Origin: Phycisphaerales bacterium
GTDB taxonomy: Bacteria; Planctomycetota; Phycisphaerae; Phycisphaerales; UBA1924
Reading direction: 5' to 3'
Assembly (NCBI GenBank): GCA_040221175.1
Contig: JAVJVK010000004.1
Coordinates: forward strand, 976,268 to 1,040,267
DNA length: 64,000 nucleotides
Shown: piece by piece, positions 13,517-46,724 of the stretch
Numbering within the stretch: position 1 is the first letter of the stretch
How the letters are laid out: the number at the start of each line of letters is the position of its first letter
The notes under the pieces: generated by a model
The model's input: the letters and a program-made list of their open reading frames with translations, nothing else
The model's database searches: none
Told to the model about the DNA's origin: nothing
Made by a program: the position numbers and the translations under genes

Positions 13517-14524
13517 ATGTCCCCACCGCCGCCAAGCAGCGCCGCGACCGCACGTCCGCACGCCATTCGGACCGATCCGGCAAGCTCACATTGCCCCTCA
13601 ACGGACCGGCAGGAAGACGCACTCGTTGCGTCTCCGGCACCGGCCGGCCTTGTTCGCCCGGCTGCGCCCATCGCCCTTGCAACGCCACCCAGACGCGGCC
13701 GGGTCACGGCGACGCTGGTGTCGCTCTGGAAGCGATCGGTTCGCCGACTCCTGCGTCCGGCGCTGGTGCCGCTCGAAGACGCCATTGCCGGTGCGGGTGG
13801 ATGGCACGCCTGGCGCGGCGGGCTCGATGGCTGCCTCACCAGTGCCATCGGCGACGTGCACATCGAGCGCCGCCTCCGCGACGAGCTCGCCTACTGGGTT
13901 CGGGCCGTCCACGTCCCAGGCGCCCACGAGGCCATCGACCCAGCTTATGGCGACTTCCACGCCGTGTTCGCGCGCTGGCAGACCGACCGCTGCAAGGAGC
14001 TGGCCGAGTGGCTCGGCGCGCCCGACGCCGTCGCGTGGCAGACCCAGACGTCAGTCCTGGAAATCGGAGGTGGTCCACACCCGATGGTGGCCCAAGGGAC
14101 GTGGCGATACGCCGCGGCCGTCGATCCGTTGAACGACGGGTATGCATCATGCGGGCTCTTCCCGCCCGGCCCGCTCGGGTTCACGCCCATTGCCGCCTCG
14201 GGCGAGCAGATTCCCGTTGCCGGCAGCACGTTCGATGTCGTGGTGTGCGACAACTGCCTCGACCACGTTGCCGATCCCGGCCGCGTCGTGGCCGAGATCG
14301 GGCGCGTGCTGAAGCCAGGCGGACACGCCTGGATCCTCGTCGACCTGCGAAGCACGGTCGACGACATGCATCCGCATGCCTTCACGCCCGAGTTACTTTC
14401 GGCCATGCTGATCAGCCAGGGCCTGGACATCGTGCGTGACCGCATGGGCGAGCACGCCAGCCACCCGCTGGCCTATGGCGAGATCCGGGTGCTGGCTCGC
14501 AAGCGAACCGACCGACCGGGCTGA
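13517..14524 (+). CDS. Class I SAM-dependent methyltransferase
   Basis: The C-terminal half carries a Rossmann methyltransferase core. Motif I is VLEIGGGPHP (about 180-189), the acidic loop is AAVDPLND, and motif IV-like is FDVVVCDNCLDHVADP, followed by VLKPGGHAWILVDL. This is the UbiE/MT11 type. The first 60 residues are Pro/Ala-rich and may be disordered or the real start may lie further in; ATG 13517 is the first of the frame. It is divergent from phoU and ends shortly before the terminator of the convergent PEP-CTERM gene. The substrate is unknown; small-molecule, lipid or glycan methylation are all possible. Confidence 0.82.
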   Translation: MSPPPPSSAATARPHAIRTDPASSHCPSTDRQEDALVASPAPAGLVRPAAPIALATPPRRGRVTATLVSLWKRSVRRLLRPALVPLEDAIAGAGGWHAWRGGLDGCLTSAIGDVHIERRLRDELAYWVRAVHVPGAHEAIDPAYGDFHAVFARWQTDRCKELAEWLGAPDAVAWQTQTSVLEIGGGPHPMVAQGTWRYAAAVDPLNDGYASCGLFPPGPLGFTPIAASGEQIPVAGSTFDVVVCDNCLDHVADPGRVVAEIGRVLKPGGHAWILVDLRSTVDDMHPHAFTPELLSAMLISQGLDIVRDRMGEHASHPLAYGEIRVLARKRTDRPG

Positions 14525-40436: not shown

Positions 40437-40533
40437 ACGAAACAGGCCCCGCAGCCGGATCCCGGCCCCGGCGTCGGCGGGAGGGCCCAAAGAAGGCCCG
40501 AGCGAAGGCCCGAGAACACGATTTCTCCCCTCC

Positions 40534-40690
40534 GCGCAACGCGTTGCGCGCTCGGCGCAACAGTGAGCGCGGCCCGCGCAACGCGATCCCGGCCCCGCGC
40601 AACGCGATGCGCGAGGGGCGCAACGCGTCCTGGAGCCCGCGCAACGCGATGCGCGGGGGGCGCAACGCGTTCTGGGAGCCGCGCAACGCG
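40534..40690. repeat. Tandem array of 21-bp repeats with core GCGCAACGCG
   Basis: The core GCGCAACGCG starts at 40534, 40576, 40597, 40618, 40639, 40660 and 40681, with a degenerate copy (GCGCAACAGT) at 40555: eight units spaced exactly 21 bp. Between cores the sequence is variable but alternates, and several units continue as ATGCGCG, making imperfect palindromes. The first unit is the perfect palindrome GCGCAACGCGTTGCGC. There is no unique spacer of CRISPR type. Equal phasing of two helical turns resembles iterons or cooperative protein-binding arrays. Confidence 0.85.
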
Positions 40691-40755
40691 ATGCCGGGGC
40701 CCGGTGGCGTGATCGGCGGGCATGCACGCCGCGATGGGCCGCTGGCGGTTTGTGC

Positions 40756-40784
40756 TTGCGTGTTCGGCTGGGTTCTGGTATGCT
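40756..40784 (+). promoter_or_regulatory. Predicted promoter of the first FG-GAP gene
   Basis: TTGCGT (40756-40761), 17-bp spacer, TATGCT (40779-40784), 21 bp before ATG 40806. The paralogous gene has the same -10 and spacing (42476-42504), which supports both. Confidence 0.55.
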
Positions 40785-40805: not shown

Positions 40806-42095
40806 ATGCCCGAGAGCCGTGTCGTTCTGACCGTGCTGGCCGCCGCCACGCTGCCGCTCACCGCGTTGGCCCAGGACTGCGACCCTATCGAGATCTTCGC
40901 GCCACAGATGGCGTATGACGCGGGCGCAACGCCACTCTCCATCGACCTGGCCGATCTGGACGGCGATGGCGACGCCGACATGGCCGTGGCAAACTACATC
41001 AGTAACGACGTGAGCGTGTTGCTCAACAATGGTGATGGCACGTTTGCGTCTCAAGTGCGATACGAAGTAGGCGAACTTCCATGGTCCGTGGCGATTGGCG
41101 ATCTGGACAGTGACGGTGACGGTGACCTGGCCGTCTCCAGCCGCGACAGCGACAGCGTGAGCGTGCTGCGCAATCACGGTGATGGCACATACGCGCCAGA
41201 GGTGCGCTATCGGGTCGTCGGCGGCCCCGTATCCCTGGTGATGGGAGACCTGGACAGCGATGGCCACGCAGATCTGGCGGTGGCGTGCCCCCTCACGAAC
41301 GGCGTCAGCGTGCTGCTGAACAACGGCGACGGCACCTTTGCGCGGGAAGTTCAGTATCGCGCGGGCGTTCGAGCCTTCGGCGTGGCGATCGGCGACCTCG
41401 ATGGCGATGGCGACGCCGACCTGGCCGTGGCGAACAGCAGCAGCGCCGATGTGAGCCTGCTCTTGAACGCCGGGGACGGCACCTTCCCGACCCAACTGCG
41501 GCATGACGCGGGCGATCAGCCCAACAACGTCGCGGTGGGCGACTTGGACGGTGATGGTGACGCGGACCTCGTCGTGGCCAACGGGGATAGCCTTGGCATC
41601 GGCGTGCTCCTGAACGACGGCAACGCCGTCTTTGCCCCCGCCGTGTTCTATGACGCGGTGTACGGCTACGGAAGCCTGGTCATCGATGACGTGGACGGCG
41701 ATGGCGACGCGGACCTGGTCTTGGGCAACGCGTCTGCTCTGGATGTCAGCGTCTTCTTGAACAAAGGAGATGGAACATTCGCGCCCCGCGTGCCTTTGTC
41801 TGCCGGCCTGGAGCCCATCGGGCTGCAACTCGGCGACCTGGACGGCGACGGCGACCCGGACCTGGCCGTTACCGATGCGAGCAACGACAACGTCACCGTG
41901 CTCTTGAATCGGTGCGGGCCGTTTCCCTGCCCCGCCGATCTCGACGGCGACGGCGTGCTCACGATCTTCGACTTCCTGGCCTTCGGCAACCTCTTCGATC
42001 TGATGGACCCCATCGCCGATTTCGACGGCGACGGCGACTTCACGATCTTCGATTTTCTCTCGTTCCAGAGTGCCTTCGCTGCTGGCTGCCCGTAG
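40806..42095 (+). CDS. Secreted FG-GAP/VCBS propeller protein with dockerin-like C-terminus
   Basis: A 429-residue exported protein: signal peptide (ending LALAQ), then seven FG-GAP/VCBS repeats of about 49 residues (pattern DLDGDGDADLAVAN...VSVLLNNGDGTFA), enough for one seven-bladed propeller with calcium-binding DxDGDGxxD loops. The linker NRCGPFPCPADLDGDG follows, then two dockerin-like EF-hand segments (FDFLAFGNLFD, FDFLSFQSAFA) ending GCP. This tail is the 'GC-type dockerin' anchor known from Phycisphaerales, probably a surface-attachment or sorting signal. ATG 40806 has GGAG upstream and fits the signal peptide; the longer frame to 40722 does not. A larger paralogue follows at 42525. 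Confidence 0.9.
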   Translation: MPESRVVLTVLAAATLPLTALAQDCDPIEIFAPQMAYDAGATPLSIDLADLDGDGDADMAVANYISNDVSVLLNNGDGTFASQVRYEVGELPWSVAIGDLDSDGDGDLAVSSRDSDSVSVLRNHGDGTYAPEVRYRVVGGPVSLVMGDLDSDGHADLAVACPLTNGVSVLLNNGDGTFAREVQYRAGVRAFGVAIGDLDGDGDADLAVANSSSADVSLLLNAGDGTFPTQLRHDAGDQPNNVAVGDLDGDGDADLVVANGDSLGIGVLLNDGNAVFAPAVFYDAVYGYGSLVIDDVDGDGDADLVLGNASALDVSVFLNKGDGTFAPRVPLSAGLEPIGLQLGDLDGDGDPDLAVTDASNDNVTVLLNRCGPFPCPADLDGDGVLTIFDFLAFGNLFDLMDPIADFDGDGDFTIFDFLSFQSAFAAGCP

Positions 42096-42143
42096 CCGTT
42101 GGGCCGGGGTAGGCACGGGGCATCGCTCCTACCCTCCCCTCCC

Positions 42144-42320
42144 ATGACCCCCACCGCCCAGACCACCGCCCAGACCTCCCAACCCGGCGAAGCCGGAGTC
42201 CTCCACACCGCCCGCCAGGGCGATATCCACCTGTGGACGCGCACCCTCATCCCCACGACGAGGGAGGCCCCCGCCGACGCGACGACGCCCGGCCGCGTGT
42301 TCCCGGTCCGCGCGGGCTGA
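42144..42320 (+). pseudogene. Truncated duplicate of the proS 5' end
   Basis: This 58-codon frame is clearly a copy of the start of proS at 44898. Shared stretches are MTP.AQT, RQGD(I/V)HLW, RTLIPTTREAPADATTP and VF.VRAG, after which it ends in TGA where proS continues. The upstream 15-20 bp, including TACCCT 8 bp before the ATG, is also duplicated. It follows the first FG-GAP gene exactly as real proS follows the second, so it marks a tandem duplication whose breakpoint lay inside proS. A short peptide could still be made from the copied promoter. Confidence 0.85.
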
Positions 42321-42475
42321 TCGGCGGGCTCGACGCGGGGGTGGGCGGCGGGCCGCGCACGCCCGAGCATCGCCCCGGGCCGCGGCGCGCGTGAGTTTCG
42401 CGGCCATCGGCCGGACTCTGGGGAACATGGGCCGCATGGGGTAGGCGAATCGACGGACCTGGTCCGAATTTGCCC

Positions 42476-42504
42476 TTGTGCCGTGTCGTGATTTCCGGTA
42501 TGCT
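42476..42504 (+). promoter_or_regulatory. Predicted promoter of the second FG-GAP gene
   Basis: TTGTGC (42476-42481), 17-bp spacer, TATGCT (42499-42504), 20 bp before ATG 42525. The context GGTATGCTG is shared with the promoter of the first FG-GAP gene. Confidence 0.55.
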
Positions 42505-42524
42505 GGCGCGCCGAAGGAGCCACC

Positions 42525-44861
42525 ATGCCCAACCGCACCCCCACCGTCCTCGTGCTGGCCGCCGGCCTGGCCGCCTCGACCGCACTTGCCACCCGTGCGC
42601 ACGCACAGGCGTGCGACCCCGCCACGCAGTTCGAGCCCGAGCAACGCTTCGACGCGGGCGATGGGGCGTGGAGCGTGTCGCTGGGCGACCTCAACGGCGA
42701 CGGCTTCCAGGACATGGCCGTGGCCAATCAGGTTTCCGACGATGTGAGCGTGCTGCTGGGCCGGGGCGACGGCACGTTCCAGCCCGAGCAACGCTTCGAA
42801 GTTGGTCAGAGGCCAGAGGGCGTGGCCATTGGTGACATCAACGGCGACGGCTTCCAGGACATGGCCGTGGCCAATCAGAGCGACTACGACGTGAGCGTGC
42901 TGCTGGGACGCGGCGACGGGACGTTCCAGCCCCAGCAACGCTTCGATGTGGGCGACCGCCCCCGGCACGTGGCGCTGGGCGACCTCAACGGCGACGGCGC
43001 CCCGGATATGGCCGTGGCGGACTTCGACGGCGACGTCAAGGTGCTGCTGGGACGCGGCGATGGCACCTTCCAGCCCGAGCAACGCTTCGACGCGGGCGCG
43101 TACTCGGTGCACGTGGCGCTGGGCGATATCAACGGCGACGGCTTCCAGGACATGGCCGTGGCGAACTCCGAGAGCGACGACGTGAGCGTGCTGCTGGGAC
43201 GCGGCGATGGGACCTTCGAGACCCAGCGACGCTTCGATGCGGGCGAACGGCCCTGGAGCGTGGCGCTCAGCGACCTCGACGGCGATGGCAACCTCGACGT
43301 GGCCGTGGCGAACCTGGATGGCGACGCCGTGAGCGTGCTGATGGGACGCGGCGACGGCGGCTTGCGGCCCGCGCAACGCTTCGACGCGGGCTCGAGTCCA
43401 CGGAGCGTGGCCCTCGCCGACCTGAACGGCGACGGCGCCCCGGACGTGGCCGTGCCAAGCCTGCTGAGCGACGAAGTGAGCGTGCTGCTCGGTCGCGGCG
43501 ACGGGACCTTCGAGCCCCAGCAACGCTTCGGCGTGGGCGACGCGCCATGGAGCGTGGCGCTGGGCGACCTCAACGGCGACGGCGCGACGGATGTTGCGCT
43601 CGCAAGCCTGGGCAGCGCTGACGTGAGCGTGCTGATCAACCGCTGCAATCCGCCCGCCTTCTGTCCGCTCGAGCCCGAGCAACGCGTCACCGCGGGCGAC
43701 AGACCACTGAGCGTGGCGCTGGGCGACCTCAACGGCGATGGCTTCCAGGACATGGCCGTGGCCAACGGCTTCAGCAACGACGTGAGCGTCCTGCCGGGCC
43801 GCGGCGACGGGACCTTCGAGCCCCAGCAACGCGTCAACGCGGGCGGAAGCCCATCGAGCGTCTCGCTGAGCGACTTCAACGGCGACGGCTTCCAGGACAT
43901 GGCCGTGGCGAATCAATCCGACAGCGACGTGAGCGTGCTGCTCGGCCGTGGCGACGGCACCTTCCAGCCCCAGCAACGCTTCGACGCGGGCTCCGGACCG
44001 CGCAGCACGGCCGTGGCGGACATCAACGGTGATGGCTTTGAGGACATGGCCGTGGCGAATCGATACGACAACGACGTGAGCGTGCTGCTCGGCCGCGGCG
44101 ACGGGACCTTCGAGCCCCAGCAACGCTTCGGAGCTGGCGATGGGCCGTTCGGCGTGGCGCTCGGTGACCTCGACGGCGATGGCGTCCCGGATCTGGTCGT
44201 GGCGAACGTAAGCAGCGAAGACGTGAGCGTGCTGCTCGGCCGCGGCGACGGCACCTTCGAGCCCCAGCAACGCTTCGGCGCAGGCCGTGGGCCGTTCAGC
44301 GTGGCGCTGGGCGACTTCGACGGCGATGGCGTCCATGACGTGGCCGTGGCGAACAACTTCAGCAGCGACGTAAGCGTGCTGCTCGGCCGCGGCGACGGCA
44401 CCTTCGAGCCCGAGCAACGCCTCCAAGCGGGAGATGGTCCCTATAGCGTGGCGCTCGATGACATCAATGGCGACGGTTTCCTGGACATGGCCGTCGCGAA
44501 TGGCTTCTTCGACTTGAGGGTGCTGCTGGGTTTGGGTGACGGGACCTTCGGGCCCCAGCAACGCGTCGGCGCGGGCAGCGGAGTGAGCGTGGCGCTCGGC
44601 GACCTCAACGGCGACCGAGTCCTGGATCTAGCCGTGACAAATGAGTCAGGCGACTACGTGGGCGTGCTGCTCAACCGCTGCGCCCCTCCGTCCTGCCCGG
44701 CCGACCTGGACGGCGACGGCGAGCTCTCGATCTTCGATTTCCTGGCCTTCCAGAACCTCTTCGACGCCAGCGACCCGCGGGCCGACTTCGACGGCGACGG
44801 CTCGCTGACGATCTTCGACTTCCTGGCCTTCCAGAACGAGTTCGACCTGGGCTGCCCGTAG
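42525..44861 (+). CDS. Secreted double-propeller FG-GAP protein with dockerin-like C-terminus
   Basis: A 778-residue paralogue of the 40806 product: signal peptide (ending ATRAHAQA), then 14 FG-GAP/VCBS repeats of about 49 residues with near-identical wording (LLGRGDGTFEPQQRF.AG...VALGDLNGDG). After repeat 7 stands NRCNPPAFCPLEPEQR (about 43639-43684), a remnant of the linker that precedes the dockerin in both proteins. Repeats 8-14 then run to the true linker NRCAPPSCPADLDGDG and the GC-type dockerin (FDFLAFQNLFD, FDFLAFQNEFD, GCP). It therefore looks like two seven-blade propellers fused after loss of one dockerin. ATG 42525 has AAGGAG upstream. The proS gene follows after 36 bp. Confidence 0.9.
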   Translation: MPNRTPTVLVLAAGLAASTALATRAHAQACDPATQFEPEQRFDAGDGAWSVSLGDLNGDGFQDMAVANQVSDDVSVLLGRGDGTFQPEQRFEVGQRPEGVAIGDINGDGFQDMAVANQSDYDVSVLLGRGDGTFQPQQRFDVGDRPRHVALGDLNGDGAPDMAVADFDGDVKVLLGRGDGTFQPEQRFDAGAYSVHVALGDINGDGFQDMAVANSESDDVSVLLGRGDGTFETQRRFDAGERPWSVALSDLDGDGNLDVAVANLDGDAVSVLMGRGDGGLRPAQRFDAGSSPRSVALADLNGDGAPDVAVPSLLSDEVSVLLGRGDGTFEPQQRFGVGDAPWSVALGDLNGDGATDVALASLGSADVSVLINRCNPPAFCPLEPEQRVTAGDRPLSVALGDLNGDGFQDMAVANGFSNDVSVLPGRGDGTFEPQQRVNAGGSPSSVSLSDFNGDGFQDMAVANQSDSDVSVLLGRGDGTFQPQQRFDAGSGPRSTAVADINGDGFEDMAVANRYDNDVSVLLGRGDGTFEPQQRFGAGDGPFGVALGDLDGDGVPDLVVANVSSEDVSVLLGRGDGTFEPQQRFGAGRGPFSVALGDFDGDGVHDVAVANNFSSDVSVLLGRGDGTFEPEQRLQAGDGPYSVALDDINGDGFLDMAVANGFFDLRVLLGLGDGTFGPQQRVGAGSGVSVALGDLNGDRVLDLAVTNESGDYVGVLLNRCAPPSCPADLDGDGELSIFDFLAFQNLFDASDPRADFDGDGSLTIFDFLAFQNEFDLGCP

Positions 44862-44897: not shown

Positions 44898-46724
44898 ATG
44901 ACCCCCAACGCCCAGACCGCCACCGAAGCCGCCTCCCCCCTCTCCACCCTCCGCCAGGGCGACGTCCACCTGTGGAGCCGCACCCTCATCCCCACCACCC
45001 GCGAGGCCCCCGCCGACGCGACGACGCCCAGCCACGTGTTCCTGGTGCGGGCGGGGTTCATCCGGCAGCTGGCCGCGGGGGTGTACGACTACCTGCCGCT
45101 GGCCTGGCGGAGCCTCCGCAAGATCCAGGAAATCGTCCGGCAGGAGCACGAGCGGATCGGGGCGATGGAGATGCTCTTCCCCGCGTTCGAGCCGATGAGC
45201 CTGCTGAAGGAGACCGGCCGCGACGAGGCGTACGGCGACGACCTGTTCACGCTCGAGGATCGGCACGGGCGGGCGCTGGCGCTCGCCCCGACGCACGAAG
45301 AACCCATCGTCGAGATGATGAAGGGCGCGGTGACCAGCTACAAGCAGCTGCCGCTGAGCCTGTACCAGATCCAGACCAAGTTCCGCGACGAGCCGCGGCC
45401 GCGCTCGGGCCTGCTGCGCTGCCGCGAGTTCATCATGAAGGACGCGTACAGCTTCCACCTCAATCAGCAGGGCGAGGGCGGGCTGGACGTGGCCTACGAC
45501 CACTTCTACGACGCGTACACGCGGATCTTCACCAGGTGCGGCTTGACGTTCACGGCCGTCGAGGCCGAGAGCGGGCCCATCGGCGGCTCGGCCAGCCACG
45601 AATTCATGGTGCACGCCGAGAGCGGCGAGGACAAGGTCTTGGTGTGCCCGGTGAGCGGGTACGCGGCGAACGTCGAGAAGGCGGAGATCGGCGAGCGCGT
45701 GTGGTCGTTCGATGGTGATGCGGGTGAAGAACTCAAGAAGCACCACACGCCGAACATGCCTGGGATCGAGCTGGTCGCCGGGCACCTGGGGGCGACGGCG
45801 GCGGGCATGCTCAAGACGATCGTCTTCGAGCGCGTGCTCAAGGACCCGGACACCACCAAGTACGTGCTGGCCGTCGTCCGCGGCGACCACGACGTGAACG
45901 AGGGCAAGGTGCGCGACGCGGTGGGCTCGGGCGTGAGGCTGGCCGACGAGGCGAAGGCGAAGGCCGACGGGCTGGCGATCGGCTACGTGAGCCCGAGCGC
46001 GTTCGCCAAGTTGACGGGGGCGACGATCGTGGTCGATCCCGACGCCGCGCAGCCGAACGCCTGGGCGACGGGCGCCGACGAGGTGGACCACCACGTGACG
46101 GGGTGGCACTGGCATCGCGATCTCGGCTACGAGACGGGCAAGCTCAAGGTCGCCGACATCCGCAACGCCGAGGCGGGCGACCCCAGCCCGCGTGCCGAGG
46201 GCTCGACGCTCGAGGTCCAGCGGGGCATCGAGGTCGGCCACATCTTCAAGCTGGGCACGAAGTACTCCGACGCGATGGACTTCAAGGTCCTCGCCGAGGA
46301 CCAGAAGCCGCGGTCGGTGACCATGGGCTGCTACGGCATCGGCGTGAGCCGGACCATGGCCGCGTGCGTCGAGATGAGCCACGACGAGAACGGCATCATC
46401 TGGCCGGCGGCCGTCGCGCCCTATCACGTCGAGATCATCCTCATGAAGCCCGAGGACGAGAAGCAGCGGTCGGTCGCCGGCGAGCTGGCCGAGAAGCTGG
46501 CGGCCAGGGGCGCCGACGTCCTGATCGACGATCGCAAGGAGCGCCCGGGCCCCAAGTTCAAGGACGCCGACCTGATCGGCATCCCGGTGCGCCTGACGCT
46601 GGGCGACAAGGCGCTGGACGCCGGCGGCGTGGAGTTCAAGCTGCGCAAGGACACCGGGAAGGGCGAGGTGGTGGCGTTCGACTCGGTGATCGACCGCTGC
46701 ATCTCGGCGCTGGAGAGCGCGTGA
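44898..46724 (+). CDS. proS: Prolyl-tRNA synthetase (bacterial type)
   Basis: A 608-residue class II aminoacyl-tRNA synthetase. Motif 1 region LVRAGFIRQLAAGVYDYLPL, the TXE-like loop ALAPTHEEPIVEMM, and motif 2 KFRDEPRPRSGLLRCREFIMKDAYSF are visible. A central editing (INS/YbaK-like) domain lies at about 230-400, motif 3 is GCYGIGVSRTMAACVE, and the anticodon-binding domain ends the chain. The length and INS domain mark the bacterial (ProS type 1) form. Its first 17 codons are Pro/Thr/Ala-rich. The stop overlaps the GTG start of the ABC ATPase gene (GTGA). A fragment of its 5' end is duplicated at 42144. Confidence 0.96.
   Translation: MTPNAQTATEAASPLSTLRQGDVHLWSRTLIPTTREAPADATTPSHVFLVRAGFIRQLAAGVYDYLPLAWRSLRKIQEIVRQEHERIGAMEMLFPAFEPMSLLKETGRDEAYGDDLFTLEDRHGRALALAPTHEEPIVEMMKGAVTSYKQLPLSLYQIQTKFRDEPRPRSGLLRCREFIMKDAYSFHLNQQGEGGLDVAYDHFYDAYTRIFTRCGLTFTAVEAESGPIGGSASHEFMVHAESGEDKVLVCPVSGYAANVEKAEIGERVWSFDGDAGEELKKHHTPNMPGIELVAGHLGATAAGMLKTIVFERVLKDPDTTKYVLAVVRGDHDVNEGKVRDAVGSGVRLADEAKAKADGLAIGYVSPSAFAKLTGATIVVDPDAAQPNAWATGADEVDHHVTGWHWHRDLGYETGKLKVADIRNAEAGDPSPRAEGSTLEVQRGIEVGHIFKLGTKYSDAMDFKVLAEDQKPRSVTMGCYGIGVSRTMAACVEMSHDENGIIWPAAVAPYHVEIILMKPEDEKQRSVAGELAEKLAARGADVLIDDRKERPGPKFKDADLIGIPVRLTLGDKALDAGGVEFKLRKDTGKGEVVAFDSVIDRCISALESA

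Follow-up and report, generated by a model that had tools for sequence, protein, structure and literature searches.

The stretch of DNA considered here (the window) comprises 64,000 nucleotides of contig JAVJVK010000004.1 from a Phycisphaerales bacterium (GenBank assembly GCA_040221175.1), and contains, from position 40,806 to 44,861, two genes, here called G1 and G2, which encode FG-GAP propeller proteins ending in GC-type dockerins. The genes lie in tandem upstream of proS, the gene for proline–tRNA ligase, and a fragment of proS lies between them. G1 encodes one set of seven repeats and G2 two such sets, and the best reading of G2 is that it is probably a fusion of two duplicate genes in which one dockerin was lost. 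Comparisons were made within the window's own genome (G000) and with six other genomes of the same genus (G001–G006), giving seven in all. The features of the locus are as follows.

40703..40784, plus strand: promoter flank of G1, ending in a –10 box TATGCT, with a –35 box TTGCGT at 17-base spacing (both boxes predicted from sequence)
40806..42095, plus strand: G1, with a signal peptide, seven FG-GAP repeats and a GC-type dockerin
41928..42089, plus strand: GC-type dockerin of G1 (NF041540, residues 375–428)
42096..42143, plus strand: spacer from G1 to the proS remnant, 97.7% identical over 43 bases to the spacer between dockerin and proS in G005
42144..42343, plus strand: broken 5' copy of proS, with a frameshift and a TGA, 72% identical over 54 residues to intact proS; its nearest DNA is that of G005
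42476..42504, plus strand: predicted promoter of G2, TTGTGC-17-TATGCT
42525..44861, plus strand: G2, with a signal peptide, 14 FG-GAP repeats as two blocks and a GC-type dockerin
42627..43637, plus strand: first seven-bladed propeller of G2, from repeat comparison, an AlphaFold2 model and an integrin alpha match
43638..43667, plus strand: seam of G2, NRCNPPAFCP, a dockerin-lead remnant, from pattern comparison with dockerin leads
43668..44672, plus strand: second seven-repeat block of G2, from motif scan, repeat comparison and tree
44694..44855, plus strand: GC-type dockerin of G2 (NF041540, residues 724–777)
44898..46724, plus strand: intact proS (NCBIfam PRK09194, 698 bits against a cut-off of 558), the 5' end of which is duplicated upstream

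The reading of G1 used here starts at the ATG at 40806, the mechanically called open reading frame (ORF) beginning earlier, at 40722, and the signal peptides of both genes are signal-peptide-like N-terminal stretches judged by eye. An earlier reading of this DNA made without database searches (the sequence-only reading) had counted seven repeats in the first protein and 14 in the second, and the Pfam FG-GAP stretches give the same numbers. In a motif scan the repeats of both proteins follow one another at 47–49 amino acids, the sole longer spacing being one of 53 between repeats 7 and 8 of G2; at the DNA level, tandem units of 147 bases at 42630–44671 score 1509, which is beyond chance. All seven repeats of G1 and all 14 of G2 carry a predicted calcium motif of the DxDGDG type, D[LFIV][ND][GS]D[GR], with variants in repeats 2 and 3 of G1 (DSDG) and in repeat 14 of G2 (NGDR). 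The C-terminal domains match dockerin_GC (NCBIfam NF041540) with 40.5 bits in G1 and 44.2 bits in G2, above the cut-off of 29.

The origin of G2 is most legible in the linker that follows its repeat 7. This decapeptide had been described in the sequence-only reading as standing where a dockerin tail would begin, and the observation holds well, since the linker NRCNPPAFCP parallels NRCGPFPCP before the ADLDGDG of the dockerin in G1 and NRCAPPSCP before the same ADLDGDG at the end of G2, and the pattern is that of the dockerin lead in many relatives. In other words, G2 has a second dockerin lead at 43638–43667, after which a repeat starts directly. Among 91 FG-GAP ORFs from the seven genomes of the genus, found at loci that were taken from the best matches to G2 (plus an own-genome search for G000) and not from all matches, a strict NRC/NQC...C lead stands before the dockerin in 41 and a CDP lead stands at the start of the mature protein in 40. 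These ORFs were classed as seven-repeat (47) or fourteen-repeat (17), with 27 set aside on account of another period, truncation, irregularity, seven repeats with a near dockerin hit, or about 21 repeats. The clearest fusion seam is found in a double propeller of G006 (L065; G006:C20:40001-47000), where LLNRCGPPPC-DPADLFGP keeps both the end-lead of the first copy and the start-lead of the second, as comparison with its own N-terminal CDPAGLFGP indicates. The stage that would be expected before fusion is represented by pairs of adjacent sister single-propeller genes, L040 (G000:C1:233001-243500; support 100, starred, in the quick tree described below) and L074 (G003:C17:1-4677; 97, starred, in the quick tree and 100/99, starred, in the careful one). 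In genomes of named organisms, one contig scan covering 40 loci, from which own-genome records were perhaps omitted, gave no NRC...C seam, and none of 25 listed ORFs with at least 12 repeats has a short NRC...C lead at repeats 7–8, where one (L120) has a single cysteine and three have long cysteine-rich linkers. As a separate observation, the ORF L038_8 of G000 (L038; G000:C13:39001-52000) encodes 1129 amino acids with about 21 FG-GAP repeats, a possible triple propeller.

The kinship of the propellers was assessed with a quick tree of 81 propeller units and a careful tree of 35 units hand-picked from those. The two halves of G2 are likely sisters, since they come out together in both trees, with a support of 87 in the Shimodaira–Hasegawa-like approximate likelihood ratio test (SH-aLRT) in the quick tree and of 94/87, not starred, in the careful one. 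In the careful tree G1 is parted from G2 by a starred branch (97/90). Commensurate with this placement, the approximately unbiased (AU) test, applied to groups that were named only after the first tree had been seen, rejects a clade of G1 with both halves (p 1.2e-55), a clade of G1 with half 1 (p 0.001), and a single clade of all four scarred halves, that is, those of G2 and L065 (p 7.8e-7). The L065 seam is independent of that of G2. Synonymous divergence (dS) is 0.50 between the halves of G2, 0.87 between those of L065, and 0.93 and 1.09 between G1 and the two G2 halves, while proS gives 0.29 between G000 and G005. By dS, the duplication behind G2 is not very recent, with the proviso that homogenisation between blades may distort these values.

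Structure prediction, which the sequence-only reading had proposed as a test for two seven-bladed units, gave a confident model for the first half alone and a less sure one for the whole protein. Half 1 with its linker, modelled by AlphaFold2 with 12 alignment rows, has a predicted local distance difference test score (pLDDT) of 94.6, a predicted template modelling score (pTM) of 0.92 and 28 strands, that is, seven four-stranded blades. The best match of this model is integrin alpha-IIb (Z 35.6, root-mean-square deviation 3.0, 325 residues, over residues 4–353). Half 1, the half covered by single-unit modelling, is thus predicted to be a seven-bladed propeller of the integrin alpha type. With the model of the whole of G2, a Foldseek search ranked SF3B-core and DDB1 chains at the top with template modelling scores under 0.4; by sequence, a single weak PDB match to G2 was obtained (E 0.0078).

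The repeats themselves were compared in the register i/i+7, against permutations and against all seven cyclic registers, in protein and in DNA. In protein the mean for this register is 0.654 against 0.622 for permutations, 1.2% of which are as high, and it is the best of the seven. Mutual best pairs are confined to repeats 1/8 in DNA, there being none in protein, and the pair 6/13 ranks low among 13 places: in DNA repeat 13 comes 13th for repeat 6 and repeat 6 comes 12th for repeat 13, while in protein each is 12th for the other. The same positional signal is found between G1 and each half of G2, at about 2%, such that the register alone is no proof of block duplication, and it was dropped as such; a tree of whole units tests the matter better. 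The sequence-only reading had named a failure of repeats 1–7 to group with 8–14 as paired blocks as grounds for refutation, and on this strict view the outcome is mixed and about half unfavourable, with a signal in the protein comparison and no significant one in the DNA.

Taken together, the dockerin lead at the seam, the sister halves, the fold of half 1 and the independent seam of L065 make fusion the best reading of G2. More fully, with a probability of roughly 70%, G2 arose by fusion of two close tandem single-propeller genes with loss of one dockerin, G1 standing apart from this event and G2 reaching the proS slot later. Two close single-propeller genes would have arisen in tandem, by tandem duplication, after which a deletion between them would have taken out what lay at the junction, from the dockerin and stop codon to the promoter and signal peptide, leaving in frame the dockerin lead NRC-PP--CP and then repeat 1 of the second copy. 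In L065 such a deletion could have used the stretch that CDPADL, the start-lead, has in common with CPADL, where the dockerin starts. The blades of G2 would then have been partly homogenised. G1 would have had no part in the fusion and would occupy the old slot upstream of proS, which G2 may have entered later, with or beside a second proS 5' end, the original 5' end staying behind as the broken remnant. This arrival, by proS-anchored recombination, is less sure than the duplication and deletion.

Several observations weigh against this account. The sister support of the G2 halves is under the star level, the bootstrap is unsettled and the composition of half 1 was flagged as odd; homogenisation between repeats could, moreover, mimic the sisterhood, and the halves of L065 are themselves only weakly sisters (94/57, careful tree). 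The i/i+7 pairing in DNA (0.744 against a permutation value of 0.731, with 9.3% as high) is not significant and ranks second of the seven registers (0.744 against 0.745). The start-lead of the second copy is unrecognisable in the seam of G2, unlike that of L065. The model of the whole of G2 is weaker (pLDDT 84.6, pTM 0.60), confidence dipping around residues 260–360 and 600–710, and its integrin match spans residues 6–692 with only 321 aligned, mixing N- and C-terminal blades, so that the model seems to combine blades from the two ends into a single propeller; this is taken as the predictor swapping similar blades, and some real mixing may exist. Pfam cohesin PF00963, the partner that a cellulosome-like cohesin–dockerin system would require, has no matches at E 0.001 in G000 (rated 100% complete), where a partner of another family may serve, the control search having been positive in 1 of 14 genomes. 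Lastly, of 20 long ORFs in the genus with at least 13 FG-GAP repeat hits, only two have a cysteine-lead seam, such that most doubles bear no trace of a fusion route. The 18 seamless ORFs suit the idea that G2 reached its 14 blades by internal amplification through unequal crossing-over, its linker being an ordinary spacer with two cysteines by chance, as do the similarity of the blades, best matches that cross the register, and the many bacterial 14-repeat proteins that have no seam, several of which have a 53-residue spacing at repeats 7–8 with no cysteine pair. Such amplification is nonetheless unlikely, in that the linker of G2 keeps the dockerin-lead pattern and the seam of L065 has both an end-lead and a start-lead.

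The sequence-only reading had gone further and supposed that the locus once held at least three copies, which would make G1, half 1 and half 2 the products of one local tandem duplication. Adjacency, a shared promoter type and a shared dockerin type speak for such an origin, which is nevertheless very improbable: the AU test rejects the grouping of G1 with the halves, the dS values between G1 and the halves are about twice that between the halves, and a proS fragment separates the genes. The promoters, which had been called alike and do share TATGCT as –10 box and 17-base spacing, align weakly (score 24 against a shuffled mean of 18.2, with 4.2% of 500 shuffles as high), and as a sign of local duplication their likeness was ruled out, since 18 of 82 FG-GAP ORFs examined across the genus have a TATGCT-type box with ribosome site and start (none in the reverse-complement control). 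The longer promoter flank of G1, in turn, matches the proS neighbour of G005 and not G2. With G1 outside the G2 clade, a promoter type shared by other genes of the family and a flank of this kind, three local copies are not supported, and fusion of two duplicates with G1 apart remains the preferred reading.

The broken 5' end of proS between G1 and G2 was missing from the sequence-only reading. The remnant is 86% identical to the spacer and proS start of G005, whereas its identity to the intact proS in G000 itself is 76%. Moreover, the promoter flank of G1 matches that of the proS-proximal dockerin gene of G005 (L031) with 83% over 82 bases (1e-18), whereas other matches are of 51 bases at most and no fetched genome stretch gave one as long as that of G005; the two flanks are, judging by this likeness, orthologous. 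The G005 gene at this slot is not a propeller; its passenger has only weak matches to Golvesin_C (E 0.0019) and CBM_6 (E 0.0047), both below cut-off, and its C-terminal dockerin is likewise of GC type. From these matching flanks, G1 appears to sit in an orthologous slot with a different passenger, and G2 looks like a later arrival. A GC-dockerin gene stands directly upstream of proS in G000, G001, G004 and G005; in G003 an FG-GAP-matching ORF occupies this position, with no dockerin flagged and a contig end near, and in G006 and G002 no dockerin gene was flagged near proS. A second broken proS 5' copy, longer than that of G000, is present in G004 (L030; G004:C1:3596001-3616000, reversed stretch about 13690–14065), where a reverse-strand dockerin gene lies between the fragment and proS, and where the fragment is 91.8% identical to the genome's own proS. 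Second matches to the proS 5' end occur in 2 of 120 family genomes (five having no match at all), and it is the same two, G000 and G004, among the seven of the genus.

The order gene–proS 5' end–gene–proS would also fit a local tandem duplication of a dockerin gene together with the proS 5' end, with nothing arriving from elsewhere. In quartet counts over ungapped sites (own pair : remnant with first outsider : remnant with second), all six quartets of G004 join the remnant with its own proS (14 to 24 sites against 0 to 5), such that there only the gapped N-terminal stretch suggests a foreign end. For G000, three quartets favour a foreign remnant (G005/G006 1:7:3, G001/G006 4:10:3, G003/G006 2:7:2), one goes against it (G005/G004 1:3:7) and two favour neither side (G001/G004 4:5:6, G003/G004 6:4:5). 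Local duplication is a real possibility, if the lesser one: set against it are the greater likeness of the G000 remnant to G005 than to its own proS, the finding that neither G1 nor G2 is a duplicate of the other, and an N-terminus of GEAG type on the fragments of both species and not on their intact proS. A wider and more tentative idea, rather unlikely as it stands, is that GC-dockerin genes are exchanged at the slot just before proS, where the constant ends (promoter flank, dockerin, spacer and proS start) are kept while the passenger is swapped, a propeller in G000 and a weakly CBM6/golvesin-like domain in G005; proS-anchored entry would leave broken proS 5' ends of the other N-terminal type, as in G000 and G004, and the resemblance of the start-lead C-D-P-A-D-L to the dockerin start C-P-A-D-L would allow repeated in-frame fusion. 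The sequence of the proS 5' end flanks G2 on both sides, and no donor was found. The slot, with broken copies in two species, is a more interesting lead than the fusion of G2 itself.

The idea that dockerin genes are generally marked by displaced pieces of their neighbours found no support in 55 stretches of G000, some overlapping, around dockerin or FG-GAP genes, which are part of at least 150 dockerin places and in which direct repeats were sought, dockerin and propeller sequence being excluded. The search recovered its two positive controls (the window and G004), and of eight stretches with other hits six had them inside one ORF (L040, L043, L046, L049, L137 and L147) and two in paralogue-like ORF pairs (L156 and L161). 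A mobile repeat as carrier was likewise rejected, the paired GCGCAACGCG motif upstream of G1, which reads the same backwards so that its control search is uninformative, being found at only one other place in G000 (C13:234712). Upstream of G1, at 40532–40698, some four 42-base units based on CCGCGCAACGCGAT form an array, and GCGCAACGC motifs recur in two other genomes: in G006 they precede proS by about 1.0–1.2 kb, and in G004 they lie close to where the proS fragment ends.

Both proteins are presumably secreted. In terms of function, each propeller would be a binding head, and the pair in G2 would make a calcium-dependent two-headed binder, as family membership suggests, which the dockerin would tether to a putative cell-surface partner. 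The dockerin type is abundant: G000 holds at least 150, since 150 of 224 candidates were scored and all of these were above the cut-off. Dockerins of this type indicate planctomycetes akin to the Phycisphaerales. With G2 as query, its own genome gave 33 matches in one search and 165 in a single-genome search, most listed rows of which cover little beyond the dockerin end. Other proteins anchored by the GC-type dockerin domain (NF041540) have the same C-terminal domain, the passenger in G1 and G2 being a propeller. No paper found in a literature search uses the term 'GC-type dockerin', and for proline-tRNA-synthetase, dockerin and planctomycetes the titles among the matches listed concern other subjects; in other planctomycetes, the parts of the source consulted report cohesin and dockerin modules (PMC6461901).

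The build of G2 is already known, tandem seven-bladed FG-GAP proteins being found in several phyla. Tandem 14-repeat forms of bacterial integrin-type seven-bladed FG-GAP propellers were reported in 2011 (Chouhan et al., PMC3192720), and in the text consulted each unit of these has, as in G1 and G2, seven FG-GAP repeats and a calcium motif; the word 'dockerin' does not appear in the main text of that paper, whereas G2 displays a seam to a dockerin lead. Double and triple propellers were also met here in records named Myxococcales, Verrucomicrobia, Nitrospirae, Hydrogenedentes and others. WRAP of Nostoc punctiforme, as described in the portion seen (PMC6805158), resembles G2 in having 14 blades that form two seven-bladed propellers, its blades being of WD40 type and practically identical whereas those of G2 are less alike (mean 62% amino acid identity across the halves). 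For the proS slot a possible analogue is provided by the displacement arrays of Vibrio type VI effector–immunity genes, for which homology-facilitated illegitimate recombination has been proposed, at least in the sections consulted (PMC5361080): a new gene enters by a homologous anchor and the old piece remains. Here a dockerin gene would be the cargo, and proS would serve as its anchor.

The architecture of G2 is therefore ordinary, and its history unusually legible, in that the seam and the broken proS copy hint at how such genes join and move. Since a single genus holds adjacent sister singles, scarred fusions in two species and seamless doubles, the route from one propeller to two becomes testable within it. 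The proS remnant, if it is a true mark of gene arrival, would show how genes for surface proteins of this large dockerin family are shuffled between species.

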